Shown here piece after piece: positions 26,787 to 63,345 of a stretch of DNA of 64,000 nt. The stretch covers positions 1 to 64,000 of the forward strand of contig NZ_QGMQ01000006.1 of NCBI RefSeq assembly GCF_003259155.1. Reading direction: 5' to 3'. The translations under genes were made by a program, and so were the position numbers. How positions within the stretch are numbered: the first letter of the stretch is position 1; every line of letters starts with the position of its first letter. Below the pieces are notes generated by a model that searched no databases, had not been told where the DNA came from, and worked only from the letters and a program-made list of their open reading frames with translations. Source of the stretch: Marinimicrobium alkaliphilum. Lineage in GTDB: Bacteria; Pseudomonadota; Gammaproteobacteria; Pseudomonadales; Cellvibrionaceae.

Positions 26787-26824
26787 AACTCGTACAGCTT
26801 CCGTTTTGTGGAATTGATCTCCGT

Positions 26825-42061: not shown

Positions 42062-42092
42062 AACGTCGTCCTTGGGGGTAGTCATTTACACA

Positions 42093-44157: not shown

Positions 44158-45162
44158 CTAGCGGGTGAGAATCCATTCGCCGCCTTCTCGACGGAAGTGT
44201 AATGCGTATACGGCAGCTCCGCCTTCATCGCGTAGCAGCATAATCGCTGGCGCAAAATTTTCCCTATCAAGACTGACTATTTTCCTGTTCAGCTCCTGAA
44301 CAACACCCACATGATCAGGTACCAGAGGAACCAAGGTAAGCGATTCGTTGCTTGCGGCTCGCTCTAGATCACCCCTGATTCCTGCTTCTGTCGTGCCTTT
44401 TTCGAAATAGAACGCCTGGTCTGTCTCTCTATTTCGCTCATCGAAAAGGTGTATAATGCTGTCAATATCGTTACTTTCTATACCGCGATGTATCACCTTA
44501 TGCGCCTCAAGCAAGCTATCCCTTGCAGCGTAGTAATCTTCGTCACTGGCAGCGTAGTAGTCAGGTAGCACGTCACTATTAAAAAAGGCCCACAGTGGCA
44601 ATGAATTGGGTGCGTTCACGTTCCGATAGATAACCTTCGCACCTTCGTAAGATCCCTCGGCTTCCACAATAGGATCCGATACGGTGACATCTTCACCACC
44701 CGCTATAAGCCGCCCATTGTTGAAATGGTAACCGCCAGACTCAGAGTGCTCCAGCGTGTACCCCTGTTCCGCATCACTATCTGATTTAAACGTCATGCTC
44801 AAAATCGTGATTTTGGATTCCTGTTCTCCTTGGGGATGTACGTTTAGAGACACTTTCAACAGAGCTCCGGCATTGAACCGCCCACTTTCATCCAGAGGAG
44901 CGACCATAAACCCCACTTGATTATTTTCTGGGTGAAAGTAGTGATTGGCCGGAAGAGTTAGCGCCATACTGCCGCCGTGATAGTACTCATCGAACAAAGA
45001 GACTCCGTTGATGACCACCTTGAAGCTCAGGCTACGAGCTTCAAAATCAACTGTAAAAACTGGTTTTTCATTTAAAACATTCACGACATCCCCTTCCATC
45101 TTTTCTGAAAACGCTTTGTTAGTTGCTAATAAAACAATAAGTACGCTAGTAATCCATTTCAT
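44158..45162 (-). CDS. Secreted protein of unknown function, candidate immunity protein
   Basis: 334 residues, not recognised. A signal peptide (about 1-19, MKWITSVLIVLLATNKAFS) predicts a periplasmic location. The N-terminal half looks beta-rich (DFEARSLSFKVVINGVSLF). The C-terminal 110 residues (HKVIHRGIESNDIDSIIHLF onward, ending FRREGGEWILTR) resemble a small alpha+beta, NTF2-like fold, by eye only. The start codon lies inside the end of the preceding 718-residue gene (overlap 17 bases), so the two are translationally coupled. The DNA is visibly more AT-rich than its neighbours. Overlap, composition and export signal fit an immunity protein for a periplasm-acting T6SS effector, but this is inference. 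Confidence 0.6.
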   Translation of the reverse strand: MKWITSVLIVLLATNKAFSEKMEGDVVNVLNEKPVFTVDFEARSLSFKVVINGVSLFDEYYHGGSMALTLPANHYFHPENNQVGFMVAPLDESGRFNAGALLKVSLNVHPQGEQESKITILSMTFKSDSDAEQGYTLEHSESGGYHFNNGRLIAGGEDVTVSDPIVEAEGSYEGAKVIYRNVNAPNSLPLWAFFNSDVLPDYYAASDEDYYAARDSLLEAHKVIHRGIESNDIDSIIHLFDERNRETDQAFYFEKGTTEAGIRGDLERAASNESLTLVPLVPDHVGVVQELNRKIVSLDRENFAPAIMLLRDEGGAAVYALHFRREGGEWILTR

Positions 45163-47317: not shown

Positions 47318-48280
47318 TTAAGACGGCAAAAATTCTATCGGATAGATAATAGTGATGGTTTCCGCTTGACGTTGTTCAAATCGAAATTGCAACACACGGT
47401 GGCGGATCTGTTGTTCCAGACTCGGGTTGTTGAGCTCGCTCGAGACAACATCAACAGCGGTGACTTCTCCTGTCGGCTCAATGGTGACCTCCAGAACCAG
47501 ACGCCCTTCCAGGCCGGGGTGCTGACGGCGAGCCCTGTTGTACAATGAGTAGAGCGTCCCCCGATTCTGATCGAATACCAGAGACACTTCCTCTTCGCTA
47601 CGACCGGTTTCTGCAAAGCTCGCCCGTCGCACCTCATCACCGCCGCCCTCATCGGCGACCTCCTCGGGACCGCTGACCGCAGCCAGTTCGCGCCGTGCCA
47701 GGCGACTTTCGCCCACAGCGACAGCGGAAACAGGCGCGGGGCCCGCGCTATCCGCTCGGCCAGCCGCAGTCAGCACCTCGGTGCCACTGTAACCGGACGC
47801 TGTTTGCGCGTCGCTCGTTCGGGCGCTCGACTGGGTATCGACCAAAGCGTCGACGTCGGAAGTATCCATCAAGCTGTCCAGTTGTTCGCCCATGGCTAGC
47901 AACCCGGTTTGGGCGGCTCGCTCCCGGGCCTCCTGCTGCGCTTCGGTCAGAGGTGCGGCTTCACGCTCGGGGCGCTCGCGCTCGACCACTGGTCGCGGCT
48001 CAACCACGGGAGGGGGGCGGCGCTCCGGGGGCGGCTCTGCAGGCTCGGGTTCGGGCCTGGGCCGCTCGGTAATGTAGCGTGCGACCCGCTCGGGTATATC
48101 TGCGCGGGTCATCCGTTCTGGCTCGGGCACGTTGATGCCCCTCAGAAGCGCACCCACAAGCAAAGCGGCCGCCACACAGCCAACGACAAGCCAGCGGTAA
48201 GTGCCATCAGCGTTGCGGGCCGGCTGCCATTGGACCGTCAAATCACAGTAGTTGGGCGGAAAGTTCTCTCGCTTAGTCAT
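47318..48280 (-). CDS. AgmX/PglI-type TonB-like periplasmic protein
   Basis: 320 residues from ATG 48280, chosen because it overlaps the ExbD stop by eight bases and has AGGTGG upstream; an ATG 51 bases earlier would lie deep in that gene. One transmembrane helix (about 30-48) is followed by a proline/glutamate-rich, periplasm-spanning segment (about 70-115). The C-terminal domain (about 225-320) has the pattern SLYNRARRQHPGLEGRLVLE...LEQQIRHRVLQFRF typical of the TonB-like AgmX/PglI C-terminal domain. With ExbB and two ExbD genes upstream it completes an energy-transducing complex. In Myxococcus a similar set (AglRQS plus AgmX) powers gliding. Confidence 0.82.
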   Translation of the reverse strand: MTKRENFPPNYCDLTVQWQPARNADGTYRWLVVGCVAAALLVGALLRGINVPEPERMTRADIPERVARYITERPRPEPEPAEPPPERRPPPVVEPRPVVERERPEREAAPLTEAQQEARERAAQTGLLAMGEQLDSLMDTSDVDALVDTQSSARTSDAQTASGYSGTEVLTAAGRADSAGPAPVSAVAVGESRLARRELAAVSGPEEVADEGGGDEVRRASFAETGRSEEEVSLVFDQNRGTLYSLYNRARRQHPGLEGRLVLEVTIEPTGEVTAVDVVSSELNNPSLEQQIRHRVLQFRFEQRQAETITIIYPIEFLPS

Positions 48281-48785
48281 GGCCACCTGCCGCCAACTCT
48301 GAGCGCTCCAAGGATGTCTGATCGGCAGCAAACGCTATACGGCTGTATTCCAGTTCCCGACCAGTCTGAATAACTCGGCGAATAATATCGTAAGGGATGC
48401 TTTGATCGGCAATGACTGTCAGGGTGTCACGTCCTTCGCCCGCGGCCAGTGATCGACGATAGGCCAGTTCTTCACGCAAGGGCGCGAGCGTCTCGCCTTG
48501 AGCCTGGGCAATGTCGGCCAGCGTCATTACTCTGCGGTTCTGCACCAGGACATCATCTTCTGTGAGGATAATGCGCAGGGTTTCTTCCGGAGCGGTTTGC
48601 GATACGCTCGCGGGCAAGGTCAATACTTTCGCGCTTGGCAAGGCTTTCTCTGTCGATGTATTGATCAGCAGAAAGAACACCAAAATGGTGAAGATGTCCA
48701 TCAGGGACACCAGATTGATACCGGGCTTTTTGCGCAGCTGGTTGTAACGGCCCAGGCGCCGCGCCCGAAAACTCGCTGGCTTCAT
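48273..48785 (-). CDS. exbD: ExbD/TolR-type protein, proton-path Asp present
   Basis: 170 residues. A short basic cytoplasmic N-terminus and a single transmembrane helix (about 23-43) carry Asp30 in SLMDIFTILVFFLLI, the position of the essential Asp of ExbD and TolR. A periplasmic domain of about 120 residues follows, with the usual D(T/L)LTVIADQSIPYDIIRRVI segment. The start overlaps the stop of the first ExbD gene (ATGA). It is the likely working ExbD of the cassette. Confidence 0.9.
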   Translation of the reverse strand: MKPASFRARRLGRYNQLRKKPGINLVSLMDIFTILVFFLLINTSTEKALPSAKVLTLPASVSQTAPEETLRIILTEDDVLVQNRRVMTLADIAQAQGETLAPLREELAYRRSLAAGEGRDTLTVIADQSIPYDIIRRVIQTGRELEYSRIAFAADQTSLERSELAAGGHD

Positions 48786-49297
48786 GACTGCCCTCCCTGT
48801 AATTCCTCAGGCGCATCGCCCAGGGAAATATCCGGAAACAGCTCGACGATTTCCAGAGTTCCAACCTGAACTTGCTGCGTACTCGCAACCCGGTCCATTA
48901 CCTGAATCATGGTGTTGTATGAGATACCTGGCTCCAGAAGCAGCGCAATAGCGGTCTCCTCGGGAAAGCGGCCTTTGACTTCTACCAACAGGCTGCGAAG
49001 GGTTCGCCATTGGGCATCGTCGTCGGTACGCGCGATGCGCTGAATCAAACCAACGTTAGCATCACGCAGGTACAGGTGACGTTCCCCCACAATCAGCTGC
49101 AACTGCAGCCGCACCTCTTCATCATCAGCACTCTGCTCGAGGGCATCCAGTGCCGGCAAGTTAAGCTCGAGTACGGTCATCCGTGAAAACACCGTCATTA
49201 TCAGTAGAAAGGGTACCAGGATGACCATCAGGTTCATAAAGGCCGTGATGTTAAGCTCGGCCGCTTCCTGGCTCTGTCTTTTTTTTCGCAAGCGCAT
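48782..49297 (-). CDS. exbD: ExbD/TolR-type protein, proton-path Asp replaced by Asn
   Basis: 171 residues from ATG 49297 (GGGAG nine bases upstream, five bases after the ExbB stop). The layout is ExbD-like: transmembrane helix about 17-38 and a periplasmic domain with LLLEPGISYNTMIQVMDRV. The membrane motif, however, reads NITAFMNLMVILVPFLLI. Asn22 occupies the place of the conserved Asp found in ExbD, TolR and MotB. The substitution was checked in the DNA (codon AAC). It may be a structural, non-proton-conducting partner of the second ExbD. Confidence 0.88.
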   Translation of the reverse strand: MRLRKKRQSQEAAELNITAFMNLMVILVPFLLIMTVFSRMTVLELNLPALDALEQSADDEEVRLQLQLIVGERHLYLRDANVGLIQRIARTDDDAQWRTLRSLLVEVKGRFPEETAIALLLEPGISYNTMIQVMDRVASTQQVQVGTLEIVELFPDISLGDAPEELQGGQS

Positions 49298-49302
49298 TGT
49301 GC

Positions 49303-49920
49303 TTACTCCCGGGTCATCAGGTTCAGGCACTTCACCGCCGAGGTTTCGATGATGTCGACGACCTTGGTCGCTTTGGTGGACAGATACGAGTGCAGAAGCA
49401 ACAAGGGGATGGCGGCGATGAGACCAAACGCCGTGGTGTTCATCGCCAGCGAGATACTTGCCGACAGCATGTCAGCCTTCTCGGAAGGATCAGCCTCGGC
49501 CACTGCGGTGAAGGCGCTGATCAGACCGATGATGGTCCCCAAAAGTCCTAGTAGAGTCGCGACGTTGGCCAGAGTCGCCAGGTAGTGTGTGCGCTGCTCT
49601 ACCTGCGGCATGACTTCCATGACGCCCTCTTCCATCGCCGACTCAATGGCCTCGCGCCGAGCGCCGGGCTCAAACCGGGAAAAGCCGTAGCTGAGTACCC
49701 GCCCGAGTGGATCGTTCATATCGGTGACCTGGCGGGAGGCCCGCTCATAGTCCTGCGCTTTCAGCATGGGTGATATCTTCTGCCAGACACGCTGAACTTT
49801 ACTCTGGGTTCTGCTCAAGTAAAGAAAGCGGTCGATGGTTATCGCCAGACCAAGCGCCATAACGGCGAGGATGGCCCACATAAACAGGCCGCCTGATTGG
49901 AAAAAGCTTACAACGTTCAT
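49303..49920 (-). CDS. exbB: ExbB/TolQ/MotA-family motor protein
   Basis: 205 residues with three transmembrane helices (about 10-30, 113-137 and 155-178) and a cytoplasmic loop between the first and second, the MotA/TolQ/ExbB plan. The family's TLLGLLGTIIGLISAF and AMNTTAFGLIAAIPLLL blocks are clear. It uses the proton gradient together with the two ExbD proteins that follow. It lies downstream of the kinase PpkA and a 66-residue gene in the T6SS transcript, which is an unusual place for such a motor. Confidence 0.93.
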   Translation of the reverse strand: MNVVSFFQSGGLFMWAILAVMALGLAITIDRFLYLSRTQSKVQRVWQKISPMLKAQDYERASRQVTDMNDPLGRVLSYGFSRFEPGARREAIESAMEEGVMEVMPQVEQRTHYLATLANVATLLGLLGTIIGLISAFTAVAEADPSEKADMLSASISLAMNTTAFGLIAAIPLLLLHSYLSTKATKVVDIIETSAVKCLNLMTRE

Positions 49921-49934
49921 ACCTTGCCTCTGGG

Positions 49935-50135
49935 TTAGTCGTCTTTACGACGGGTGATTAAATCAGTGTCCGCCGGGACTGCACGGGATTGGGGCAGCTG
50001 CACACCATTGATGCGGGCATCGAGCTGGTTAAGCAGGTCGCGCCGATAATGACGATAATCGACCGTCGACAACCCGCGCTGGTGGTAATCCAGCACCAAC
50101 TGATGCAACTGCTCAACGGTTTGTTCGGTGGTCAT
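49935..50135 (-). CDS. Small conserved-looking protein between ppkA and exbB
   Basis: 66 residues from ATG 50135, two bases after the ppkA stop and with GGAGG nine bases upstream. The longer upstream frame overlaps ppkA and is discarded. It is soluble, mostly helical and charged (MTTEQTVEQLHQLVLDYHQR... ARINGVQLPQ... RRKDD), with a YRHYRRDLLNQLDARI helix. It is not recognised. Tight spacing on both sides indicates a true operon member, perhaps a regulator or adaptor between the kinase and the ExbB motor. Confidence 0.65.
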   Translation of the reverse strand: MTTEQTVEQLHQLVLDYHQRGLSTVDYRHYRRDLLNQLDARINGVQLPQSRAVPADTDLITRRKDD

Positions 50136-50137
50136 AC

Positions 50138-52660
50138 CTAGCGGCCTCCGTTGTCGGTATTCAGCTCGCGTAGCACGCGAAAGCCGGTCGCGCCGTCGGG
50201 GCGACCGTCGTGCGCCTGGCGCGCATCGAGATGGCAATCTTCCATCGGGGTTTGGTAGTTGCCCCCCAACGCCCAAAGCCGCCCCTCACGGTCCCGCGCC
50301 CATTCGCTGGCGTTACCCAAATGATTGAGTAAACCCCAACGGTTCTGCTGGCCGACACCGACCCGCGCGAGACTGTCGCCGCGCTGGATACCGCGCGAGT
50401 CGAGTCGGCAATTGCGGTTGGAATCGCGCGCGGAACCGCCGGCATCCGCCGCGTGACGCCACTCGCTGGCGCTGGGCAGCCGGTAGTGGTACCCGGTCAC
50501 ATCGCTCAGCCAGGCCAGAAAACGCTCGGCGTCGTGGATCGATATGTCGGTCGCCGGCCAGTCGCGACGGCGACCCGCTATGGGTGTACAGCCGGTGAGT
50601 TCACAATAGCGGTTGTATTCCCCTACGCTCACTTCTTCCTTTCCGATGGCAAACGCCCGACCTCCGGCGGGTGCCGGTATGACCACCAGCGCCGGGCCAG
50701 CGCCCAGCGCAGCAGCCCGGTCACGGCAGCCTGCACGCTGTCCACGTGCGCCCATGCCGGCGAGCGACAAGCCACAAGGGTCGCGCGGCGAAATACTGAT
50801 GGCTGCGATGCGGGCACTGCCCGGGAATATCTGTTGCGCCTGTTGCTTGAACACCTGGGCGCGATCCGAAAAGCTGGTGCCGACAGTTTCAATACAACTC
50901 GCAAGCTCGGTAATAATGCGCGCTTCCTGCTGCTGGTAGCGCGGGCGATCAAGCTCACGTAATTTATCGACGGCGATACGCAAATCGTCCATGTTGAGCT
51001 GTTGACGACAAGCGGTCTGGTCGTCGACGTTGGCCAGCGCCGCATCAAACGCGCGATTGATCGCCGCCTGCTGCTCGCGACGTTGCTGCTGACGCACCGC
51101 CATGGCCTCTGCCGCCGCACGCGCCGTCTCTTGCTCCTGGAGCTCTTCACGCTGACGCTCGGCAACGTTGCGCAGCTGGGCCGAAAGGGCGTCGAGCTCT
51201 TCATGGGCCTGACTGTAACGGTAGGCATTCTTGAGAATATTCTGGGCAGTGTTCAACTCCCCCGCGCCAATGCGCTCAGTGACGGCTTCCAGGTACAAGT
51301 GGTAGATGGTCTCCCGCTGGACACTGAACCAGGGGTCGTCGTCGCCCAGCGTATCGCGCAGCTCGGAATAGGTATCCCACAGGGTCGCTTCCCAGGCAGC
51401 GCTGAAGGTGCCTGCCGCAATCAGGTCAGTCAGAACCTCCTGGCGCATTTCCAGGCGCAACGCCTGCTCGATCTCCGAGCGCACTTCCTGCTCCGAGAAC
51501 TGAGGCCAGAGTTCGTCCTGATATTGGTATGCCGCAACCGCCATGGAGGTGGTAACCACCAGCGTACCGACAACGTACTTCAGTTTGGCGACCGGGCGCA
51601 CGCTGAACTGGCGCCAGAACTCAGCCACGGAGGCCATCCGTTGTTCGCGCCGGAATGCCAGGCAACTCTCGATGGCACGCCATTGGTGCTTGGGCAGCCC
51701 CGGTATGCGTTTCACTTTCATCTTGTCGCGACAGGCCTGGTCGGCATGGGCGCGTTTAAATGGGTGTTCTCCAGCAAACAGCTCGTACGCAATACAGCCC
51801 AGCGCATAGATGTCGTCGCGCGCGTCCGGCGGCGCCCCTTCAAGCATTTCCAGGCTGGCGTACGCGGGCGTAAGCGCTCCCAGGCTCCCCGCGTCAAACA
51901 CGGTCTTATCGTCCGTGCTTTCATCGGTACGCTCAGCTTTGGCCACGGCGCGCGCGATGCCAAAATCAAATACCTTGGGCGTTCCCCGATGGGTCACAAA
52001 GATGTTGCCAGGCTTAAGATCCGAATGAATGATGTTTTCGGCGTGGGCATAGACCAACGCCGAGCAGATTCCCTCCAGAATGGAGCAGCATTCCTCTTCC
52101 GATAAGCCGATACCGCGATACTGATCCAGCAGCTTGTCGAGGGGTTTACCGTCGAGAAACTCCATGGTCATAAACACGGTATCACCGTCGCGATCAAAAT
52201 CGTGCACATTCACGATATTGGGATGGGCAATACGTTGGGTTTTCCGAGACTCCCGCTGCAGCGCGATAAACGCCTCCGGGTGACTCTTGAACTCGTCGCT
52301 AAGCACTTTGATGGCAACGTAGGGATCGCTGTCCTGGGCTTCGATTTTCAGACTGTCTTTGGCCTTGTAGACCACACCCATGCCGCCTGCGCCAAGCACA
52401 TCTTGCAAAATAAAGCGGCTTTTCAGTCGTCCGGCAGGTGCGGCGGGTGCACCTGTCTGCTGGTGGGCAGGGACATCGGGATTGATCTGGGTGCGGTCGA
52501 CCGGTGTTACCGGTGGAATGGTAACGATTTTTTTCGCCGGCGGCGCGAATCGGGTTTGGTCATCACCACCGGTGCGCGCGACAAATACCGTGGCATCAGC
52601 AGCCACCTTGTCATCCCTGCGCTGAATACGGGTACGCTGTTCCTTATCCTGCTCTGTCAT
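50138..52660 (-). CDS. ppkA: T6SS serine/threonine kinase PpkA with SUMF1-like C-terminal domain
   Basis: 840-residue membrane kinase of the threonine-phosphorylation switch, which activates the T6SS by phosphorylating the FHA protein. A disordered N-terminus (1-80) precedes the kinase domain (about 83-345). It has the glycine loop GAGGMGVVY, K118, the catalytic loop HSDLKPGN (212-219, Ser in place of the Arg of HRD) and DFG at 232-234. A transmembrane helix (about 355-375) leads to a periplasmic coiled coil (about 390-600). A formylglycine-generating-enzyme-like (SUMF1) domain follows (about 650-835; EVSVGEYNRYCELTG, YRLPSASEWRHAA, ATGFRVLREL). The outer part probably senses envelope cues. 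Confidence 0.92.
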   Translation of the reverse strand: MTEQDKEQRTRIQRRDDKVAADATVFVARTGGDDQTRFAPPAKKIVTIPPVTPVDRTQINPDVPAHQQTGAPAAPAGRLKSRFILQDVLGAGGMGVVYKAKDSLKIEAQDSDPYVAIKVLSDEFKSHPEAFIALQRESRKTQRIAHPNIVNVHDFDRDGDTVFMTMEFLDGKPLDKLLDQYRGIGLSEEECCSILEGICSALVYAHAENIIHSDLKPGNIFVTHRGTPKVFDFGIARAVAKAERTDESTDDKTVFDAGSLGALTPAYASLEMLEGAPPDARDDIYALGCIAYELFAGEHPFKRAHADQACRDKMKVKRIPGLPKHQWRAIESCLAFRREQRMASVAEFWRQFSVRPVAKLKYVVGTLVVTTSMAVAAYQYQDELWPQFSEQEVRSEIEQALRLEMRQEVLTDLIAAGTFSAAWEATLWDTYSELRDTLGDDDPWFSVQRETIYHLYLEAVTERIGAGELNTAQNILKNAYRYSQAHEELDALSAQLRNVAERQREELQEQETARAAAEAMAVRQQQRREQQAAINRAFDAALANVDDQTACRQQLNMDDLRIAVDKLRELDRPRYQQQEARIITELASCIETVGTSFSDRAQVFKQQAQQIFPGSARIAAISISPRDPCGLSLAGMGARGQRAGCRDRAAALGAGPALVVIPAPAGGRAFAIGKEEVSVGEYNRYCELTGCTPIAGRRRDWPATDISIHDAERFLAWLSDVTGYHYRLPSASEWRHAADAGGSARDSNRNCRLDSRGIQRGDSLARVGVGQQNRWGLLNHLGNASEWARDREGRLWALGGNYQTPMEDCHLDARQAHDGRPDGATGFRVLRELNTDNGGR

Positions 52661-52669
52661 AGCCTTCCA

Positions 52670-53446
52670 TTAGCTCTGTTGAGTCTCCTGACGGACGATA
52701 GCCCCAGGGATGCCTTTGGTCACCACGGCAGTTACATTGTCAGGCGCGCCCGCCTGCATGGCCGCCGCCATTAGTGCTTCCACACTCTGCGCCGGTTCGC
52801 GGCATTCGAGCCTATCGGCAATGGCTTCATCGCTGAGAACACCGTGCAGCCCATCGCTGCACAGCAAGTACATATCGCCGAGTTGAACGTCGAAAACCCG
52901 AAGGTCTAGCAGTAGGTTTTCTTCCACGCCTACCGCGCGGGTAATCACATTACTGCACTGATGGGTGCGCGCCTCTTCGGCCGATATCAGGCCCATCGTC
53001 ACCATATCCTCGACCTGACTATGATCGCGGGAAATACGCGTCAAGGTCTGGCGCCGGTATCGATACAAACGTGAGTCTCCTGCCCATAAGCACACCCCAA
53101 CACGCCCGCAAATAATCAGGTCCACCAGGGTGCTGCCAATGGTCGCACCGCCCAGGTTCTGGCGGGCATAGCGTTGCAAGGAACCGTTCACCCCGAGCAA
53201 GCAATCTTCAATACAGTCAACCGCGCCGGCTAACTCGTTGGGGACTGCCAGGCGCGCGAGCGCCGAAACGATCTCCTGACTGGCCACATCTCCCACCGCG
53301 TGTCCACCCATGCCATCGGCCACCGCCCAATGGTTGCAGGCGCCGCGCGACAGGTACGCATCTTCATTATGCTCGCGCACGGCGCCCGGGTGTGTTGCCG
53401 CGTGACTTTCCCAATAGATGGGACGACGATAGGTAGTGTCCTGCAC
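52670..53446 (-). CDS. pppA: T6SS PP2C-type phosphatase PppA
   Basis: Mn-dependent Ser/Thr phosphatase that reverses PpkA phosphorylation of the FHA protein. It carries the PP2C motifs REHNEDAYL, VADGMGGH, LWAGDSRLYRYR, CSDGLHGVLSD and DNVTAVV. The frame is open far into tagF. GTG 53446 (VQDTTYRRPIYW), with an AGGGG upstream and just past the tagF stop, gives 258 residues and is the preferred start; an earlier ATG at 53494 would overlap tagF by 37 bases. It precedes ppkA by nine bases. Confidence 0.88.
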   Translation of the reverse strand: MQDTTYRRPIYWESHAATHPGAVREHNEDAYLSRGACNHWAVADGMGGHAVGDVASQEIVSALARLAVPNELAGAVDCIEDCLLGVNGSLQRYARQNLGGATIGSTLVDLIICGRVGVCLWAGDSRLYRYRRQTLTRISRDHSQVEDMVTMGLISAEEARTHQCSNVITRAVGVEENLLLDLRVFDVQLGDMYLLCSDGLHGVLSDEAIADRLECREPAQSVEALMAAAMQAGAPDNVTAVVTKGIPGAIVRQETQQS

Positions 53447-53457
53447 GGTTCGCGCCC

Positions 53458-54159
53458 CTAGCCCTGGATCCGGGCGGCACCAAGCTGCTGCCACTGCCAG
53501 TCACGCCACTGACCGGTCAACATCGCGGTCGCACGAGCGACGGGCGGCAAGCCGCCGGTGCTTGCCAGGCAGGGATCGACTCGATCTGAGCCCTGGGTCG
53601 ACCATACGCTGTACGATGGCAACTGGCTCGCCAAGCAGCGATCCAGCATGAGCGGGTAAGCATCGAGCGGAAATACGCTCGGATCGGTCAGTGGCGCCGA
53701 CAACGCCAGTTCCGAGAAAGCTGCTTGAATCGGCGTGTGTGCCAGAGCGTCGGCCAACTCGTCAATACGAAGCTGGCCATCCAGCGCTTGCAGGGCGAGC
53801 GTCTCCACATCTTCAAACCAGGTGGCGTTAGTGGCCAAAGTCCCGACGGGCGCTGCCGAACCGGGCAGTTGAGTCATAATTGAAAAAGGGAAATATCGCC
53901 CCACCCGGTCGACACTGGGCAGCACCACGCCCGCCCACACGTGCTCATCGAGCACGCCCGGGGAAAGTACAAAATGCCAGATGGGGCTGGTCAAATACAC
54001 ATCCAGCCAATGCTCGCCGAGCTGCTCGCGTGCCGTTCCCACCAGCGCTTGAAGCCATTCGTCCCACACATGAATACAGGCCGTAGGCAGGCCCCGGTAA
54101 ACAAAATCACCGTGGGCGGGCAGCTTGCCGTAAAAGCCGGCGGCGGTTGCCATGCTCAT
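53458..54159 (-). CDS. tagF: T6SS post-translational repressor TagF (SciT/ImpM family)
   Basis: 233 residues. TagF proteins hold the T6SS in check, in Pseudomonas by acting on the FHA protein independently of the phosphorylation pathway. The N-terminal signature GFYGKLPAHGDFVYRGLP and the central VGRYFPFSIM, a hallmark of the family, are present. ATG 54159 overlaps the tssM stop (TAATG) and has GGAGG seven bases upstream, so it is chosen over an ATG 18 bases earlier. It continues the core T6SS operon into its regulatory genes pppA and ppkA. Confidence 0.92.
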   Translation of the reverse strand: MSMATAAGFYGKLPAHGDFVYRGLPTACIHVWDEWLQALVGTAREQLGEHWLDVYLTSPIWHFVLSPGVLDEHVWAGVVLPSVDRVGRYFPFSIMTQLPGSAAPVGTLATNATWFEDVETLALQALDGQLRIDELADALAHTPIQAAFSELALSAPLTDPSVFPLDAYPLMLDRCLASQLPSYSVWSTQGSDRVDPCLASTGGLPPVARATAMLTGQWRDWQWQQLGAARIQG

Positions 54160-57100
54160 TAGAGTACCTCCGGGCACCGGTACTGGCGCAAAGGGTTATC
54201 GTTGAAAATGTTATTGACACTTTGCGCTCTGACCTCGTATACAATTTCATCACGCCCGTCGGGCGCATCGGTACGGCTGTCGGCCGAAAACGTCAAGCGA
54301 TAGACGTCGGCCCGGGAGGTGCGCTCGACCCGGGCGTCCTCAAGTGCCCTGAGCCAGGCCCAGCCCCCCTCATAACGCCGTTCACGCACTGCGCCGTTGA
54401 CCCCTTCGAAGCGCAGGCGCAAACGACTCTCGGCCCGATCGCCCGCCCACGTAACCGGCCGCCACAAGCGCGGCCCGTGATTGTAGCTGAGGGCTTCGCC
54501 CCCCATGTCGAGGGAGAAGCGGGCATTTTCGGCACTCAAATCCATGGGTCGGAATTCCAGATCCAGCCTCGGCGTTGGTTCGCTACCCCGAAACATAACG
54601 TCGGTGACCTCCAGGCCTTGGCGAATACGCTCCAGGCTATCGCCCGAGAGGCCGAGAGTGTAGCCATCCACCTGTCGATTGCTCCAACGCCCGCGAGTGT
54701 GAACAAAGGGTTCAACATACTCCTGAAAAAAACGCTGGTGCGTGCCCCCGGGTTTAAAAAACTCAGTGAAGTCATACATCGATATTTCAGCGGAGGCGCC
54801 AGCGGTGAGCGGATACCGCCCCGATGCAAAGCGCTGGTAGGGGCGGTAGACCTGTTCGTGCCACTCGCGACTGACGTGATTGCGTGCCGAACCCAAGATG
54901 ACCCGCCAGGTTTGTGCCGACAGCTCCTCAAGCCAACCCTGCATCGGCTCGGGCATCGTGCGCGCATAGCTGCGCAGCTGAGTCATCGCGTTTCCGCTGC
55001 CATTTTGGTAGCGATCCCGGGCGATCTCGAAGGCACGCTGATCCGGGTTGGGGGCCATGCGGATTTCCTCGACGAAGTCGGCAAGCTTGCGCACCTCTTG
55101 CAGCGTCGCATGAACCGGTGCGGCGCTATCGTCACCACCGGCCATCAGGCGATGCAGATCCCGGTAGTGACGATCCACCGGTGTGTCATCTATCCTGCTG
55201 GCGGCCAGCTGTGCCGCCTGACTCGAGCGCTGACCTCGCCCTGCCCCCGCAACCGCATCGCGGACACGCGAATCGGTCAAGCGGGTTTGATCAACCTTGG
55301 CCTGAAGCACCGCGTGCAATGGCGAATTCAGGGTGTCAGCTGCACGCCCGAGAATGTCACCGGCATGGTTCAGGCTGGTGAAGGGCTTGATCTTGATTTC
55401 CGCCATGGCGTTGTTCCAGGTGCGGATATAATCGTTGTGATAAAGCCGGTTTACCTGCTCACTGAGAGCACTCAGATCGTCGTCGCTGATGGACACATCG
55501 GTGCTATCGAGACTGGCGAAGATCCACCGGTCATTGACCAGTTCGCGCAGTACTGGGGAGCGGCGAGACAAATCAATCGCCCGATAGCCTTCGCGGGTGT
55601 ACAGCCAAGGGACTTGGTTGACCTGCCGGGCCCGGCTGTCGTAATCAAAAACGATACTCAGCTGATCCCCGTACCGCACCTGCATATCCACCCGGCGCTG
55701 ATACTCGGGCTCGGTCTGGATACGGTTGTACACCCGCGTTGCCAGGGGTACCTGCTGCAGGCGCTCGGCAACCTGACGTGAGAGCGGCTGGTTTAAAGGC
55801 TGGGACTCAAGCTCCAGACTCAGCAACTGCGCCAGATGGGCCTGAACCTGACGCTGCTCGGCAGCACTGAGTAAGTCAGCCTCTGCCCAGTAACGGCGGA
55901 ACCACTCATTGACCGCACCCGGCGCGAGGCGCTCGACATCGCCAAACATCTGATAAACCCGAAAACGACCATACAGGGCGAGATCTTCATCTGTTTCGGT
56001 GAGCGCCCGCTCCAACTCTGCCAGCAGTCCGCGCATAAAGGGTCCGCGCAAGTAATCGTGGTACGCCTGCCGGGTACGCCGCTCAATGCGTCCGTCATAG
56101 AGCCCGACACCGGTAAGCCAGGGATGATTTTCCTGCGCATAGACGTCACTGGCCATCGACAGAGACGCCAAGGGCCCCAGCGTGGCACGCACGCTGCGAT
56201 CCCACTGGGGGGTTTCCCGGGCCGAGGCCTCGAAGGCGCTCAGGTGATGGCGCACATCCTCCATCGACCCCGCGTGGCGGCCGACACTGCCCGTCCAAAT
56301 TACCAGTAGCCCGGCGACGCAGGCCGCGAGGGCGCCGTAGGCTCCACGCTGCCCCCACCGGCGCCAACGCTCGTAGCGCGGATTGGTCCCCACAAGTTCC
56401 GATTCGGGGAAGATCACATCGCGGAACAGGCGTCCAAGGAAGAAGCTTTTACCCCGGCCAAGCGCGACGGCCTGAGGTTCGCGGTCAATACCAAACTGGC
56501 TCGAAACCGCTGTCATCAAACGATCAATCGGCGTCCCATCCTGGGTCCCGCTGGAAAAGTAAACGCCCCGCAAGTAAGGCTGAAAACGGTAGCGGTTAGG
56601 GGCGAAGGTCTCACGCACAAAAGCCTGCACCAACGGGTGAACCTGCTCCATCTGGCGCGGAAACTGCTCAATGGCGGTCCGCCGCTCGCGGTCGCGTTCC
56701 TGGTGCATCCGCCATACCAGGCGTTCATAAAGTCGCGCTTCCAATTCTCCGAGTTCGCTGTCAATATCCTCAAAGTCTGGCGCGCCGTCCGCGTGAGGTG
56801 AATCCGATAACGTGACACCCCACACCTGGTCGCGCTCATCTCGCCCCAGGTCCTCAAAGAACTCATTGAACCCGGAAATGAGATCCGCCTTGGTAAACAA
56901 CAGGTAAACGGGAAAGCGGACCTCAAGCTTGGTCATCAGTTCATCGATGCGGGTCCGAATGGTGCGCGCATGACGAAGCCGCTCCTCCTCTGGCTGTGTC
57001 AGCAGATCCTGAATACTGATGGCAACAATGACACCGTTAATGGGACGGCGGCGGCGATGTTTTTTGAGCAAATCAAGAAAACCCTCCCACGCCGAACCAT

Positions 57101-57713
57101 CGACAACCCGGTGGCTGTCCTGAGTGGTGTAGCGTCCAGCGGTATCTACAAGCACCGCCTCGTTCGTAAACCACCAATCACAATGTCGAGTACCGCCGAC
57201 GCCCTGCAGGGCGCCTCGGCCGAATTGCTCTGCAAGCGGAAACTCGAGCCCGGAGTTGACTAGCGCGGTGGTTTTCCCCGCGCCCGGCGGGCCGACGATG
57301 ATGTACCAGGGAAGCTCATACAGGGCTCGCGTTTTGTTGGCACGCCCGCGAAATTTGTGTCCCCGGAGTGTGGTCAGCGCATTAAAAAAGCGCTGCTGAA
57401 TTTCCTTGACCTCTTCCCCCGCCTGCGTGGATGCATAATCCTGGCCGCCGACCGGCGGGCTCTCCTGAATATCCTCTACCAATTGTTTGTTCTGTTTGTG
57501 GTTCCGCGCCTGGATACGCAGGTTGTTCAAACCCCAAATGATCAGAACCACCATTATGGCGACCAACCGGGCCTGGCTGCCGGCCAAAGGGGCGACGTTG
57601 GCATCGCCAAACTTGATCGCGGGACCCACAAACCAGATCAGCAAAGCAATCACCACCACGCCAAGGAGCGATAAGGTTACGGGGTGAATGAGTCGAGCAA
57701 ATAGTTTTTTCAT
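54159..57713 (-). CDS. tssM: T6SS membrane complex protein TssM (IcmF)
   Basis: 1,184-residue inner-membrane backbone of the T6SS membrane complex. Transmembrane helices lie at about 13-33, 47-63 and 450-472. The cytoplasmic part carries a complete nucleotide-binding site (GPPGAGKTT, 141-149; VLVDTAGRY near 190; FTKADLISGF), which in many TssM proteins is degenerate. A periplasmic domain of about 700 residues follows and ends in the all-beta C-terminus that binds TssJ. It is followed by tagF (overlapping) and preceded by tssL. Confidence 0.96.
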   Translation of the reverse strand: MKKLFARLIHPVTLSLLGVVVIALLIWFVGPAIKFGDANVAPLAGSQARLVAIMVVLIIWGLNNLRIQARNHKQNKQLVEDIQESPPVGGQDYASTQAGEEVKEIQQRFFNALTTLRGHKFRGRANKTRALYELPWYIIVGPPGAGKTTALVNSGLEFPLAEQFGRGALQGVGGTRHCDWWFTNEAVLVDTAGRYTTQDSHRVVDGSAWEGFLDLLKKHRRRRPINGVIVAISIQDLLTQPEEERLRHARTIRTRIDELMTKLEVRFPVYLLFTKADLISGFNEFFEDLGRDERDQVWGVTLSDSPHADGAPDFEDIDSELGELEARLYERLVWRMHQERDRERRTAIEQFPRQMEQVHPLVQAFVRETFAPNRYRFQPYLRGVYFSSGTQDGTPIDRLMTAVSSQFGIDREPQAVALGRGKSFFLGRLFRDVIFPESELVGTNPRYERWRRWGQRGAYGALAACVAGLLVIWTGSVGRHAGSMEDVRHHLSAFEASARETPQWDRSVRATLGPLASLSMASDVYAQENHPWLTGVGLYDGRIERRTRQAYHDYLRGPFMRGLLAELERALTETDEDLALYGRFRVYQMFGDVERLAPGAVNEWFRRYWAEADLLSAAEQRQVQAHLAQLLSLELESQPLNQPLSRQVAERLQQVPLATRVYNRIQTEPEYQRRVDMQVRYGDQLSIVFDYDSRARQVNQVPWLYTREGYRAIDLSRRSPVLRELVNDRWIFASLDSTDVSISDDDLSALSEQVNRLYHNDYIRTWNNAMAEIKIKPFTSLNHAGDILGRAADTLNSPLHAVLQAKVDQTRLTDSRVRDAVAGAGRGQRSSQAAQLAASRIDDTPVDRHYRDLHRLMAGGDDSAAPVHATLQEVRKLADFVEEIRMAPNPDQRAFEIARDRYQNGSGNAMTQLRSYARTMPEPMQGWLEELSAQTWRVILGSARNHVSREWHEQVYRPYQRFASGRYPLTAGASAEISMYDFTEFFKPGGTHQRFFQEYVEPFVHTRGRWSNRQVDGYTLGLSGDSLERIRQGLEVTDVMFRGSEPTPRLDLEFRPMDLSAENARFSLDMGGEALSYNHGPRLWRPVTWAGDRAESRLRLRFEGVNGAVRERRYEGGWAWLRALEDARVERTSRADVYRLTFSADSRTDAPDGRDEIVYEVRAQSVNNIFNDNPLRQYRCPEVL

Positions 57714-57725
57714 GCCACGATATCC

Positions 57726-58613
57726 TTAATCCCTTGGCGACTGATCACGTCGTTCCCTGGTTTCAATGCCGCCGATGACCTGTTCGAGCTGATCGACAAC
57801 CGGGTTGGAGCTGCTGTAAAGCCAGTAGCGAAAGCCCGAGTAGGTCATGACCAGAACCAATGCCACACTCGCGGCCAACACCCACAGAGGCACGTACTCG
57901 CTCAACGTGGAACGCGTCTTGCCCAGCCCCTTCCAGCGTCTGGACAGAGCCCTTTCGTGCTCGCCCCGGTAGCGCCGAATGGTTCGATAGAGATCATCTT
58001 TTAATTGTTCAAGCGCATCCCGCCCCCGGGTCGACAACCGGTAGCGCCCCTCAAATCCGAGGCTCAGACACAGGTACATCAACTCCAGCATGTCGATATG
58101 CTCAGCCGGTGCCTGAAGCATCCGCTCAAGAATCTGAAAGAACTTTTCACCGCCCGATGTTTCGTTGTGAAAACGGCTCAGAAGGCTGCCTTGCGCCCAG
58201 GGGCTGTCACTCCCCCAAGGTGTGTTCAGTACCGCCTCATCCAGAACCGAGCAGAGCACATAGCGCGCCGCCAATATGATCTCCGGCTTGATTCCGCGCA
58301 CCCTGGCCCGTTCCTCGAACTGCCGAATCTCATAGCTCAGCTGACGATAGAGGCCTGAGACATCCGTGTGCCGAGCGGTGCCACTGACTCGGGCATGCAC
58401 CGCCAACAACGTATCGGCGGCGCTCACCAGCGGATTGAGTCCTCGCCCGGGAACAATCAAGGCCAATGTCTCAGTGTTGGGTGTCGGGACAGGCGCGGGC
58501 TGTGCGGCCTGTACAGCAGCGCCACTGAGAGGTTCAGCACCGCCTTTCATGCGGGTTCGATCCCCCCCGGGACGCGGCTGTCGAAAAACGGTTTTGTCGA
58601 CGTTATCCATCAC
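57726..58613 (-). CDS. tssL: T6SS membrane complex protein TssL (DotU), short form
   Basis: 295 residues. A Pro-rich N-terminus is followed by the cytoplasmic DotU domain (about 60-240; SYEIRQFEERARVRG, CSVLDEAVLNTPWG, YLCLSLGFEGRYR) and a single transmembrane helix (about 250-270), then a short periplasmic tail. There is no OmpA-like peptidoglycan-binding extension. Anchoring to the wall must therefore come from another protein. It lies 12 bases before tssM. Confidence 0.94.
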   Translation of the reverse strand: MMDNVDKTVFRQPRPGGDRTRMKGGAEPLSGAAVQAAQPAPVPTPNTETLALIVPGRGLNPLVSAADTLLAVHARVSGTARHTDVSGLYRQLSYEIRQFEERARVRGIKPEIILAARYVLCSVLDEAVLNTPWGSDSPWAQGSLLSRFHNETSGGEKFFQILERMLQAPAEHIDMLELMYLCLSLGFEGRYRLSTRGRDALEQLKDDLYRTIRRYRGEHERALSRRWKGLGKTRSTLSEYVPLWVLAASVALVLVMTYSGFRYWLYSSSNPVVDQLEQVIGGIETRERRDQSPRD

Positions 58614-58643: not shown

Positions 58644-59978
58644 CTACTGCCGAATTGCCCAGAACTCCATTTCCAGGCCGGGGAAATCCCCACCCACATG
58701 CAGGGCGAAACCCCCCGAGGTTTTCAGCTCGGGCCAGAACGCACCCTGCTTATCCAGCTCAAAATAGGCGTAGCCCGAGCGGTAGGGAATCTGCCGAGGA
58801 GCAACCGGCAACGGACGTATGGCGATGCCCGGCATTGCAGCGTTGACGAGCTGGCGGATACGCTCCACCGGGCCGATTTTGATCTGGCCCGGCAAACGCG
58901 AGCGCAGAACCTCTTCCGACACATCCGCGCGCACGGCCAGGACGAAACTTCCGGAATCCAGCAATGAGCGGTCAGTAATGGTCGCCACACGAATACCGTA
59001 CTTTTTTTCCTCCAACTGCAAAGCGGTAGCCGTTTGTTCGTACACCATTGACAGGTAAGTGCGCAGGGTACTCCAAAGCGGGCCGAAGCTGGCTTGCAGA
59101 TCGTCGTGGCGGTAGGGTGCAAACTCAGGAGGACGCTTGGTCTTGGCCACAAAGGTTGCAAACTCGCCCGCCATCTGCAGCAGCAGTTGATAAAGCGCCA
59201 AGGGATGAAGGTTGCGAAGCTGAACTAGATGATTGATCAACGGCTCAAAACGGTTAATCATTTGCAGCATCATGTAGTCGGCAATCTCGGCGCTGCCACC
59301 GCGCCGGGCGTCGGCAAGCCGGCCGGCGATGGCCTCGCCCCGGTGATGCAAAAGCCCGCCAAGCTCGGGAATGAAGCCGTTCAGCCGCGGCGCCGCCGAA
59401 CAGTCCAGGCATGCGGGTATGAACTGTTCGTCCAGGAGTACATTGCCGTCATCCCGCGTTTCGGCGATCCGCAGAACCCCGATACAGGCATAGCCACTGA
59501 GGTCTTCAGTCTCAAGCATCAAACGAACCCGCAGCTTGCCAATGTCCACCGGGCGAGTATCACCGCCCTCTGCGCTGCAATCGCGGGTGCTCATTTCAGA
59601 AACGTAATAACGTGCCAACGCCTGGCTGTCATCACCCCGGGATACGTCGACGGCGCCGGGTCGGCGGACGGGCACGGTCAGGTAAACCAGTGTGTCGTGC
59701 ACCCCCTCAGGTAACGCCAACACCGCAGGCGCGTCGTCCACGTCCGGAAAATTAAAGGGGGTTCCATCGGGAAATACACCCTGACCGCGCAGTACCGACA
59801 GCTTGCCCAGCTTCAATAACTGTTGATCCAGCTCAAACGCCTGCAAGCCCCACGCATGAACGCCCAGCGCCGAGCACTTGGCATCGACATAGCGCTCCAC
59901 GTAGCGATCATACTGCTGAAAATGCTGAGGATTGAGAAACATTCCCTCAGACCAGATAACTTTACTGCTGAGTGACAT
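58644..59978 (-). CDS. tssK: T6SS baseplate protein TssK
   Basis: 444-residue cytoplasmic protein linking the baseplate to the TssL/TssM membrane complex. The N-terminus VIWSEGMFLNPQHFQQYDRY is the family signature. LVQLRNLHPLALYQLLLQMAGE lies in the central helical domain, and a phage-receptor-binding-like C-terminal head ends at residue 444. Gene order tssJ-tssK-tssL-tssM is the standard core arrangement. Confidence 0.96.
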   Translation of the reverse strand: MSLSSKVIWSEGMFLNPQHFQQYDRYVERYVDAKCSALGVHAWGLQAFELDQQLLKLGKLSVLRGQGVFPDGTPFNFPDVDDAPAVLALPEGVHDTLVYLTVPVRRPGAVDVSRGDDSQALARYYVSEMSTRDCSAEGGDTRPVDIGKLRVRLMLETEDLSGYACIGVLRIAETRDDGNVLLDEQFIPACLDCSAAPRLNGFIPELGGLLHHRGEAIAGRLADARRGGSAEIADYMMLQMINRFEPLINHLVQLRNLHPLALYQLLLQMAGEFATFVAKTKRPPEFAPYRHDDLQASFGPLWSTLRTYLSMVYEQTATALQLEEKKYGIRVATITDRSLLDSGSFVLAVRADVSEEVLRSRLPGQIKIGPVERIRQLVNAAMPGIAIRPLPVAPRQIPYRSGYAYFELDKQGAFWPELKTSGGFALHVGGDFPGLEMEFWAIRQ

Positions 59979-59996: not shown

Positions 59997-60470
59997 TTAA
60001 TGCACCTGCGTGATGGTGTTGCCTGAAATCCGGATCCAGAGCCGATCGCGAAATACATTTTTGGCCGTCACCGGCACAACCAATTTATAGGTGGCATCAT
60101 CGTATTGGTAAAACTCGGCCAGTATGCCCACGTACCGGGTTTCCCGATCCAGAACCATCTCGTACTCACGCAGCTCCGTGGGCGCCACGCGGGACAGCTG
60201 TCGACGATTCACCAGACTGTCCCCGAGCACGTTCTGATCCCGCTCGTACAACTCGATAAAGTCGGCTCGCGCAAACGCATCGGGGCTGCGCAGTTCGTAC
60301 AGTCGAATGAAAACCGGCGCCGGCTCATCCCGGGTGTTCGGATTGATATCCTCAGCGGCGCTCACGCTCAGGGTAAAATCCGTATTCAGATTGAAGACGC
60401 GCCCCACCCGGCTCTCCTGGGATGAGCAGCCCACCAGCATCAAAGCGCCCAACAGCACCAATATGCGCAT
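59997..60470 (-). CDS. tssJ: T6SS outer-membrane lipoprotein TssJ
   Basis: 157 residues. A lipobox ends in LVGC with Cys15, giving a lipid anchor in the outer membrane. A transthyretin-like beta-sandwich domain follows (about 35-157; PAPVFIRLYELRSPDAFARADF, VGILAEFYQYDDATYK) that binds the TssM C-terminus. It lies 18 bases before tssK and 24 bases after tagH. Confidence 0.95.
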   Translation of the reverse strand: MRILVLLGALMLVGCSSQESRVGRVFNLNTDFTLSVSAAEDINPNTRDEPAPVFIRLYELRSPDAFARADFIELYERDQNVLGDSLVNRRQLSRVAPTELREYEMVLDRETRYVGILAEFYQYDDATYKLVVPVTAKNVFRDRLWIRISGNTITQVH

Positions 60471-60494: not shown

Positions 60495-61820
60495 CTATTT
60501 CGACCGCGAAGCCGCAAGGCTTCTGAGTTGATCCTGATAGGCCTGAACAAATTCATCGCCGAAAATCTGCTGAAATGAGCGATCAATATTATCGTTCAGA
60601 GTTTCGTAATGTGCCTGGTACTGACGCCAGTAACGCCCCGACTGCAAAGAGCCAAAAGCGCCGGGCTTTTTCTGCTTATCAAAGGCCGCCTGAAGCCGGT
60701 GCGGATCAAAGTCCTCCAACATATGCTCAAATGCGCTGCGCATACCGGCAATCATGGCCAACTGATGCTCGGCGATTTCCTGAAAGCCTTCGTGAATAGC
60801 GTCCAGCGGCGCCTTGTAGGCTTGGCTCCGGCGCACAAAGATGTTGTCGATGGCCTCGTCGACATCAGCGGAGAACTTGAGCGGATTATTCTCGACGGGC
60901 TGGATGGTGGTTACGTTCATCCGAAACTCATTCTTGATGCTCGCGCGCGAGCGCAACACCTGCATCAGGCCGGCAATGACCTCCCGGATCATACGACCTA
61001 CCAGGGGAGAAAGTTCGGCGCGATCGGCCGGAGACAGGCGACTACTGTCCAGTCCCATGGCCTCGATCAGGGCATCTACCGGGCCACCTGCAGACTCAGT
61101 CTGTGGCGGAATTTTCGCTACCGCGGGCTTGGGCACGGGTGACGCAACCTCAACGGGCGCGGGCATAGATTCGGGCTCTGCAGCGCTCGACGCTGCCTGA
61201 ACCTCGTCGAGCCAATCGTCAGGGATCAAACTCTCGGGCGCAGCCTCAGGCCAGGCAATCGCCTCCGCCGCCGGGCTGGCAGACGCAGCCGTTTCGCCGA
61301 TGGTCCAAGGCTCTGGCGCCACATCACTGTCAGCGAGACCATCCAGGGCCTGCAGCGGGTCGACTGACGCACCACTGTCTACCAGCACAGAATCGCCAGG
61401 GCCAAAAGGATCCTCGCCAAAGGCAGTACCCGATGAGGCCGGAGGCGGCGCAGCGCCGGGCAAATCATCGAAGGGCGACAGGGGGTCAGGCGTACAGGCG
61501 GCTGACATCTCAACGGCGAAACTGTAGTCGCCGAGACTAATGGAGTCACCATGAGTAAGACTGGCACGCGAGCCTTTACCCAGCGGCTCTGACGATTGAT
61601 TGAGAAAGGTACCGTTGGTACTGAGATCAATAATCTGGTAATGATTGTTTTGAAAAACAAGCTCACAGTGCCGTGACGAGAGAATTCGCTCAGGATCGGC
61701 GAGAACCCAGGTGTTGCCGGCGCCTCGACCGATGGTTCCGCCCTGCTCGCCGAAAGTATGGGAAGGTTGTGAAAGCGGTATGCCGTCCGGTGCTTTGGTA
61801 ATCCTTAACTGTAAAGTCAT
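60495..61820 (-). CDS. tagH: T6SS FHA-domain protein TagH (Fha1-like)
   Basis: 441 residues and first gene of the leftward T6SS operon. An N-terminal FHA domain (about 1-105) carries GRGAGNTWVL, SSRHC and the phospho-threonine pocket NGTFLNQ. A low-complexity Ala/Pro/Glu linker (about 110-245) leads to the conserved C-terminal domain (about 250-435; SRLSPADRAELSPLVGRMIREV, GRYWRQYQAHYE) of the TIGR03354-type family. It is the expected substrate and partner of PpkA and PppA, triggering T6SS assembly when phosphorylated. Confidence 0.93.
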   Translation of the reverse strand: MTLQLRITKAPDGIPLSQPSHTFGEQGGTIGRGAGNTWVLADPERILSSRHCELVFQNNHYQIIDLSTNGTFLNQSSEPLGKGSRASLTHGDSISLGDYSFAVEMSAACTPDPLSPFDDLPGAAPPPASSGTAFGEDPFGPGDSVLVDSGASVDPLQALDGLADSDVAPEPWTIGETAASASPAAEAIAWPEAAPESLIPDDWLDEVQAASSAAEPESMPAPVEVASPVPKPAVAKIPPQTESAGGPVDALIEAMGLDSSRLSPADRAELSPLVGRMIREVIAGLMQVLRSRASIKNEFRMNVTTIQPVENNPLKFSADVDEAIDNIFVRRSQAYKAPLDAIHEGFQEIAEHQLAMIAGMRSAFEHMLEDFDPHRLQAAFDKQKKPGAFGSLQSGRYWRQYQAHYETLNDNIDRSFQQIFGDEFVQAYQDQLRSLAASRSK

Positions 61821-62232: not shown

Positions 62233-63345
62233 ATGGCCTCAGAACGCGTTATCGACTTAGATGCACTCCTTGCGCCCATCGCCGAAACCACGCCTGCGGG
62301 CAATGATCCGCGAGAAGATGCGTCGCCTCAATCGCTCTACCAAACCCTGAAAAGAGAGCGTTCCTCTGCCCGTGCGGCTGAACGAAAAACCGTGCACGAT
62401 GGTAACGATCAGGAAGCGGACAGCCATTGGCAGAACGTATTGAGTATGGCCCCGACACTCATTCAGGAGCAGGCAAAAGACCTCGAAGTCGCGAGCTGGC
62501 TGACGGAAGCCCTGGTACGCAAGCACGGATTTAGAGGCCTGCGGGATGCATTTGCGTTAATACACGGACTGGTGCAAAACTTCTGGAACGACCTCTACCC
62601 CCGCCCGGATGAAGACGGCATCGAAACCCGCGTGGCACCGCTGTCTGGCCTCAACGGCGAAGGTGCCGAAGGTGTCCTGATTGCCCCCATCCGCAAAGTG
62701 TCAATCACGGAGGGCAATCCTCCAGCCCCCTTTAGCCTGTGGCAGTATCAGCAGGCGCTGGATATTCAGAAGCTCCCCGACGAAGATGCCCGGCAGACAA
62801 AAGAACAGACGCTGGGTTACAGCCTTTACGATATCGAGCGGGCTGTGGCCGAGTCGTCGGACACCTTCTTTATCGAACAACGGGACCATCTTGACGAAGC
62901 ATTGGCGCATTATCGCGCCTGTAGCGAGACACTCGACAATCATTGCGGCGCGGAATACGCGCCCCCCGTGCGCAATATTCTCTCGGTGCTGGAAGAGTGT
63001 CGCGGTGCTATGAGTCACCTCGGCAAAGACAAGTATCCGGTTGCCGGAGAACACACGGAAAGTGCCAGTTCCGACGGCGATAAATCCGCCAACAGTGACG
63101 TCCCCGTATCCACAAACCACATCAAGAAGAAAGCGCTCGACCGAGAAGAAGCCTTCCGGCAACTGCGGGAGATTTCCGACTTCTTTCTCAAGACGGAGCC
63201 GCATTCGCCGGTCTCCTACGTGCTTCAGAAAGCGGTCAAGTGGGGCAATATGCGGCTTGATGAGCTGATCGCAGAACTCATCCCCGACTCATCTTCTCGC
63301 GCGCATTACAGCGAGCTGACCGGCGTCGACATTAACGATGACTGA
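62233..63345 (+). CDS. tssA: T6SS assembly protein TssA
   Basis: 370 residues. The N-terminal ImpA domain (about 8-140) includes IAETTPAGNDPREDASPQSL and the FWNDLYPRPDEDG motif, followed by the middle domain and a charged linker (about 270-300). The C-terminal helical part (about 305-365) contains REEAFRQLREISDFFLKTEPHSPVSYVLQKAVKWG, which fits the TssA C-terminal ring-forming domain of the short class. It primes and caps growth of the sheath and tube. It heads the rightward operon tssA-tssB-tssC. Confidence 0.93.
   Translation: MASERVIDLDALLAPIAETTPAGNDPREDASPQSLYQTLKRERSSARAAERKTVHDGNDQEADSHWQNVLSMAPTLIQEQAKDLEVASWLTEALVRKHGFRGLRDAFALIHGLVQNFWNDLYPRPDEDGIETRVAPLSGLNGEGAEGVLIAPIRKVSITEGNPPAPFSLWQYQQALDIQKLPDEDARQTKEQTLGYSLYDIERAVAESSDTFFIEQRDHLDEALAHYRACSETLDNHCGAEYAPPVRNILSVLEECRGAMSHLGKDKYPVAGEHTESASSDGDKSANSDVPVSTNHIKKKALDREEAFRQLREISDFFLKTEPHSPVSYVLQKAVKWGNMRLDELIAELIPDSSSRAHYSELTGVDINDD

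Follow-up and report, generated by a model that had tools for sequence, protein, structure and literature searches.

In gammaproteobacteria, an AglRQS-GltC/D/E/G core, known from the gliding machinery of Myxococcus, was described by Luciano et al. 2011 (their group B genes) with its function then unknown, and duplicated core complexes were counted in Teredinibacter (T. turnerae) and Saccharophagus (S. degradans) in the same paper, where type VI secretion is unmentioned (PMC3169522). Among type VI secretion systems (T6SS), the tagQRST genes of Pseudomonas aeruginosa (PA0070-0073) adjoin ppkA (PMC6657622), and TagQRST signals mechanical damage of the outer membrane through PpkA (PMC11881912) and then Fha. 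PpkA partners other than TagQRST are TssW in Acidovorax (PMC12607579) and RtkS in Serratia (PMC10482370).

The window analyzed here is a stretch of 64,000 nucleotides from Marinimicrobium alkaliphilum, in which a preliminary description had placed an ExbB-ExbD-ExbD-AgmX/TonB-like cassette after a series of T6SS genes. All four cassette genes were confirmed there, on the minus strand, via Pfam or NCBIfam matches. The cassette and the T6SS genes around it are:

47318..48331, minus strand, AgmX/GltG-like TonB-type force transducer (NF033768; likelier start ATG 48280, giving 320 aa)
48273..48785, minus strand, ExbD2 (PF02472, E 3.1e-14; Asp30 kept at the proton site)
48782..49330, minus strand, ExbD1 (PF02472, E 3.2e-12; ATG 49297 is the likelier start)
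49303..49920, minus strand, ExbB/AglR-type proton channel subunit, 205 aa (PF01618, E 1.1e-29)
49935..50135, minus strand, small conserved ORF of 66 aa between ppk and exbB (motif like YRxxRRxLLxxID...NG)
50138..52660, minus strand, Ppk Ser/Thr kinase (PF00069, 1.3e-40) with an FGE-sulfatase-like domain (PF03781, 7.7e-13)
52670..53494, minus strand, PppA-like PP2C phosphatase (PF13672, 1.6e-8)
53458..54177, minus strand, TagF (PF09867, 1.8e-48)
54159..57713, minus strand, TssM (IcmF), used as survey marker (PF14331, 5.6e-100)
57726..58613, minus strand, TssL (DotU) (PF09850, 8.4e-74)
58644..59978, minus strand, TssK (PF05936, 2.6e-160)
59997..60470, minus strand, TssJ-like lipoprotein (from its position and from homologs at the same spot in relatives)
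60495..61820, minus strand, Fha (TagH) (PF20232, 1e-58; PF00498, 2.3e-14)
62233..63345, plus strand, TssA, first gene of the divergent T6SS operon (PF06812, 4.2e-34)

The minus-strand genes from fha to that of the AgmX-like protein were spaced by at most 30 bases, with several overlaps, and would form one transcript; a scan for promoters and terminators returned no more sites than in shuffled sequences. The overlaps and gaps of a few bases noted earlier held for the run from Ppk to AgmX, with spacings (revised starts) of +2 from Ppk to the small ORF, +14 to ExbB, about +5 to ExbD1, -4 to ExbD2 and -8 to AgmX. The small ORF itself had been missed by the preliminary description. Recognizable homologs occupied the same position in most relatives, and the 66-aa product matched no Pfam family; a SHOCT identity was discarded, as the likeness was seen by eye only and came without a Pfam match. 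The AgmX-like protein scored 67.4 bits (cut-off 40) against NF033768, the NCBIfam AgmX/PglI C-terminal domain, and 29.1 (cut-off 27.1) against TIGR01352 (TonB); hydropathy indicated one TM helix, with the C-terminal domain in the periplasm.

The two ExbDs differed at the proton site, where ExbD1 carried Asn33 (182-aa reading) in place of the usual Asp. Across loci that were not deduplicated, Asn was found at this site of ExbD1 in 110 of 112 and Asp at that of ExbD2 in 111 of 111, and the same Asn-ExbD1/Asp-ExbD2 pairing was present in Glt-type operons without a T6SS link. The simplest reading would be that ExbD1 and ExbD2 form a heterodimer in which there is only one proton site. Since ExbD1 is without the usual proton-carrying Asp, the putative proton-motor activity would depend on ExbD2.

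The T6SS core was represented by TssA, B, C (two), E, F, G, H, J, K, L and M, Hcp and VgrG. The two VipB/TssC-type sheath genes stood in tandem (contig C31:63923-67019; L250:3924-7020), and such tandem pairs were also seen in several related genomes. In Ppk, the catalytic K, HxD and DFG were invariant across 55 alignment rows; the TM helix was seen as a segment of at least 1.6 in 46 of the 55 rows and was weak in the window copy (1.37), and the C-terminal FGE-sulfatase-like domain ends the predicted periplasmic part. Fha is the likely substrate of the kinase. Located 3' of AgmX were two proteins without family match, a 620-aa lipoprotein-like protein, a 5086-aa two-partner-secretion protein, TpsB, Hcp and VgrG. 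The two without family match, of 718 and 334 aa, were encoded in tandem (44158-47302), the shorter with a signal-peptide-like start; distant relatives of the pair in the same order adjoined the T6SS in Colwellia and Aliikangiella (L119, L120, L122), and an effector/immunity pair is possible. The 5086-aa protein carried an N-terminal TPS secretion domain and was encoded together with its TpsB (24912-42085); TpsA-like genes 3' of the T6SS motor were also present in the relatives L054, L065, L068-L071 and L103.

A further set of genes that the preliminary description had missed closes the divergent operon. This operon (tssA-B-C-C-E-F-G-H) starts in the window and continues past it on C31 in the same numbering, where it ends with:

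73187-74503 (C31), TPR438, after TssH
74493-77288 (C31), TPR931, a lipoprotein of 931 aa
77285-77893 (C31), TPR202, a lipoprotein of 202 aa
77890-78159 (C31), a small secreted protein of 89 aa, last in the operon

TPR438, TPR931 and TPR202 were homologous to genes located 5' of Glt-type motors; for the 89-aa protein, the likeness to one encoded beside such motors was seen by eye. TPR931 and TPR202, as lipoproteins, are predicted to sit at the outer membrane. TPR931 of the T6SS type was found in exactly the 30 family genomes with window-type TssM (one as a partial match), on the TssM contig and within about 25 kb in 24 of the 30, and in 16 of the 18 genomes checked outside the family. Thus with the TPR genes closing the divergent operon and the motor closing the other, the T6SS cluster encodes the core complex in full, one part at each of its ends.

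As in the AglRQS-Glt core, there is a single ExbB together with a pair of ExbDs, a transducer of the AgmX/PglI type and TPR proteins of the envelope, the likeness of GltC/D/E to TPR438/931/202 being drawn through the genes that precede Glt-type motors and not from direct identity. The present system differs in that the complex is split over the two T6SS cluster ends and paired with the Ppk kinase, that its AgmX-like transducer had no FHA match whereas GltG has an N-terminal FHA (PMC3169522), and that no gliding is known for it. With TagQRST-PpkA-Fha of the P. aeruginosa H1-T6SS it shares the kinase, the phosphatase, TagF and Fha, as well as trans-envelope accessory genes directly beside ppkA, but the cluster proteins scanned here included no ABC transporter domain, a proton-type motor and TPR lipoproteins being encoded instead, and an FGE-like domain is fused to the kinase. 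ExbBD-TonB and TolQRA have the same channel and stator families and a TonB-like C-terminal domain in the transducer; on the other hand, the two ExbDs of the cassette are unlike each other (Asn occupies the proton site of one), the SHLS-type His (motif role per PMC12204202) was missing from the transducer TM helix in the copies inspected, and equivalog models were not reached. TssW-PpkA-Fha of Acidovorax citrulli is similar in that an envelope partner of PpkA sets the place and time of T6SS assembly, yet TssW is a single outer-membrane protein without a motor (PMC12607579). The T6SS clusters of T. turnerae and S. degradans, which are related bacteria, have a high similarity to HSI-I, and their PpkA has a periplasmic extension (PMC2699552); the published T. 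turnerae range is TERTU_1668-1639, with ppkA as 1640, and ExbD and TonB are unmentioned there (PMC2699552). In a paper on T. turnerae TonB, where type VI is unmentioned, the TonB2 and TonB3 clusters resemble vibrio TonB clusters. The duplicated core complexes counted in T. turnerae and S. degradans may include copies of the T6SS type. No such cassette was reported in the T6SS survey of Boyer 2009, and a search of open-access full text returned no account of a T6SS locus with this kind of motor; an earlier report in subscription papers or supplements, which were outside its scope, is possible.

The association was then surveyed from the sides of ExbB, TssM and the kinase. The ExbB survey (144 genomes of the family) clearly set apart 25 other genomes, with 62-79% identity, from paralogs at 58% or less, and the gene order tssM-tagF-pppA-ppk-exbB-exbD-exbD-agmX was found for all 25 orthologs (at least 62% identity). 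The TssM survey (143 family genomes) found the window type (at least 1079 bits, all others 932 bits or less) in 30 genomes, and in 29 of these the full motor set lay directly 3' of ppk: the window genome, the 25 orthologs, L081 (broken frames), and L082 and L083 (a different motor). The thirtieth (locus L084 of G031, an incomplete MAG) kept the small ORF and AgmX but had neither ExbB nor the two ExbDs, with no Ns in the locus. The cassette was absent from all 16 fetched T6SS loci of other TssM types, the larger group of which mostly had tagF followed directly by tssA. Moreover, in the genera g3, g9, g18, g19, g25 and g28 the T6SS type and the motor were jointly present or jointly absent; as all six genera include both carrier and non-carrier species, inheritance as a single block does not account for the association.

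The kinase survey (369 genomes of the class) found ExbB 3' of 9/9 window-type kinases (eight besides that of the window), all in T6SS loci. Its weaker matches were FGE domains, mostly in frames of 1400-1800 aa; the two examined (L245:7755-12098, minus strand, and L246:4141-8463) were related kinases of about 1440 aa that had the same C-terminal FGE-like domain and no motor. A protein with a start resembling that of the small 66-aa ORF followed many such FGE-domain kinase-type genes. Outside the family, the T6SS-motor arrangement was found in Colwellia, Aliikangiella, Kangiellaceae and Psychromonas among named bacteria. Harmless, culturable carriers include Marinimicrobium agarilyticum (L101), Colwellia echini (L120) and Aliikangiella coralliicola (L122). 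Eight loci, several of them in MAGs, had the kinase together with the motor on contigs that carry no T6SS genes; they were not accepted as proof of independence, since seven of the eight genomes encode TssC elsewhere, several of the contigs are short and L123, L145 and L126 are close relatives, and they weakly support the link between kinase and motor, which would hold even where the tie to tss genes is lost. The co-occurrence survey proposed in the preliminary description was strongly positive from every side, and the motor is co-inherited with this T6SS type across many marine bacteria. Its reading of the cassette as a motor of the AglRQS/AgmX type, foreign to the standard T6SS set but placed in a T6SS operon, was also right.

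A regular occurrence of the cassette away from T6SS genes, which would have spoken against this link, was a matter of lineage: the T6SS motor lineage stayed with T6SS genes in most genomes, apart from a few MAG contigs, whereas a paralogous Glt-type operon without T6SS link was present elsewhere in nearly all relatives. The window genome encoded 11 ExbD genes and two AgmX-domain proteins, and its second ExbB-ExbD-ExbD-AgmX cassette (C23:372120-374740; ExbB 56% identical to the T6SS copy) was preceded by large and TPR-like genes in the AglRQS-GltC/D/E/G core layout, a layout shared by dozens of loci in gammaproteobacteria. At L013 (C34:161194-162649) there was also a third ExbB-ExbD-ExbD-TonB-like cassette, which differs in type and has as its neighbor what looks like a TonB-dependent receptor gene.

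In a phylogeny built on all four motor proteins (51 loci), the T6SS- and kinase-linked motors formed one well supported clade nested among Glt-type motors, with the exception of L082 and L083. The motors of these two were nested, via several strongly supported branches, among the housekeeping motors found in the genus to which they belong, and monophyly of all T6SS motors was rejected (AU p 5.5e-59). For L083, the housekeeping motor of its own genome was 65% identical, against 37-41% for other T6SS motors. In both genomes TssM, Ppk and TPR931 were still of the native T6SS type. Therefore a paralogous motor came to fill the slot 3' of ppk; the slot is under selection, which speaks for the need of a motor at this position. 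The cassette is best explained as the motor half of a Glt/Agl relative that is now a fixed accessory of one T6SS lineage.

Of the three functions proposed in the preliminary description, a link between sensing by PpkA and the envelope is favored here. The motor takes the position of tagQRST, TPR lipoproteins are encoded at the opposite end of the cluster and an FGE-like domain is fused to the kinase; these features point to an energized (proton-driven) trans-envelope sensor or activator of Ppk, a reading to which we give about an even chance. Under this model, i) proton flow through ExbB and the ExbD1/ExbD2 pair would move the AgmX-like transducer across the periplasm; ii) the transducer would reach TPR931 and TPR202 on the outer membrane, together with the TPR and small secreted proteins, and the complex would probe the envelope or keep it under tension; iii) a breach or touch of the outer membrane would change load or contact, and this change would reach Ppk through its FGE-like domain in the periplasm; iv) Ppk would then phosphorylate Fha, and the T6SS would assemble at that place; and v) PppA and TagF would reset the response. 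Proton-driven force would in this way do the job of TagQRST in P. aeruginosa. The coupling of Ppk to the motor, the proton flow, the membership in one complex and the sensing are predictions from gene content and order. A sensor is not required by logic, as PpkA without TagQRST can act constitutively or with other partners, and the AgmX retained without ExbB and ExbDs in the incomplete MAG (L084) is a point against it.

Energizing or positioning of the membrane complex, another of the three proposals, is the principal rival of the sensor. The motor may act on the apparatus itself by positioning, anchoring or driving TssJLM through peptidoglycan, or by re-aiming it between shots, with the kinase a mere operon neighbor. 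The position 3' of TssM-TagF-PppA-Ppk would suit such a role, AglRQS-Glt complexes of M. xanthus form moving focal adhesions (PMC3169522, PMC9120999), and the outer-membrane protein TssW positions the Acidovorax T6SS via binding to TssM and PpkA (PMC12607579). However, several MAG loci pair the motor with the kinase on a contig without TssM, TagF and PppA, and every window-type kinase in the class survey has the motor; the tightest link is thus with the kinase, and we consider the apparatus reading possible but rather unlikely. A complete gliding-like proton-driven complex that serves as a structural accessory and tethers, moves or aims the injector under the control of Ppk, which would give the T6SS its own positioning motor, is a tentative variant that we hold to be unlikely. 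Neighborhood alone cannot separate a sensor from a positioning device.

Readings that detach the motor from the T6SS fare worse. An independent Glt-type envelope system with a surface or cargo function could merely travel with the T6SS cluster, in line with the paralogous operon that nearly all relatives (including the window genome, at C23:372120-374740) have without a T6SS link; yet TPR931 tracks the T6SS type in 30/30 genomes and the motor in 29/30, and re-recruitment into the same slot fits poorly, so that we regard it as improbable. The remaining idea of the preliminary description, that the motor works with the proteins encoded next (the 718/334-aa pair, the 620-aa lipoprotein or TpsA/TpsB), draws on a next gene that begins 15 bases past AgmX and on the TpsA-like genes at this place in several relatives. 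It is disfavored, because the genes 3' of AgmX change from genome to genome (Hcp-VgrG, TpsA, TpsB, unrelated genes or tssA) while the upstream Ppk link is constant, and we judge it very improbable. A TonB nutrient-uptake system located here by chance would agree with the ExbB, ExbD and TonB_C family matches, but all the ExbB, ExbD, TolQ, TolR and TonB equivalog models stayed far under their cut-offs, the AgmX TM helix had no His in the copies inspected and no TonB-dependent receptor gene was seen near the cassette, which leaves this explanation scarcely credible.

The arrangement suggests an undescribed route for the sensing of envelope damage or cell contact. How PpkA senses the envelope in most T6SSs and what the Glt core does outside gliding bacteria are two questions that meet in this T6SS lineage. 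With a Glt-type complex of its own next to the kinase, the lineage offers a direct genetic test of both and, if the reading made from these genes is true, a proton-driven motor would help to control or place a contractile injection system.
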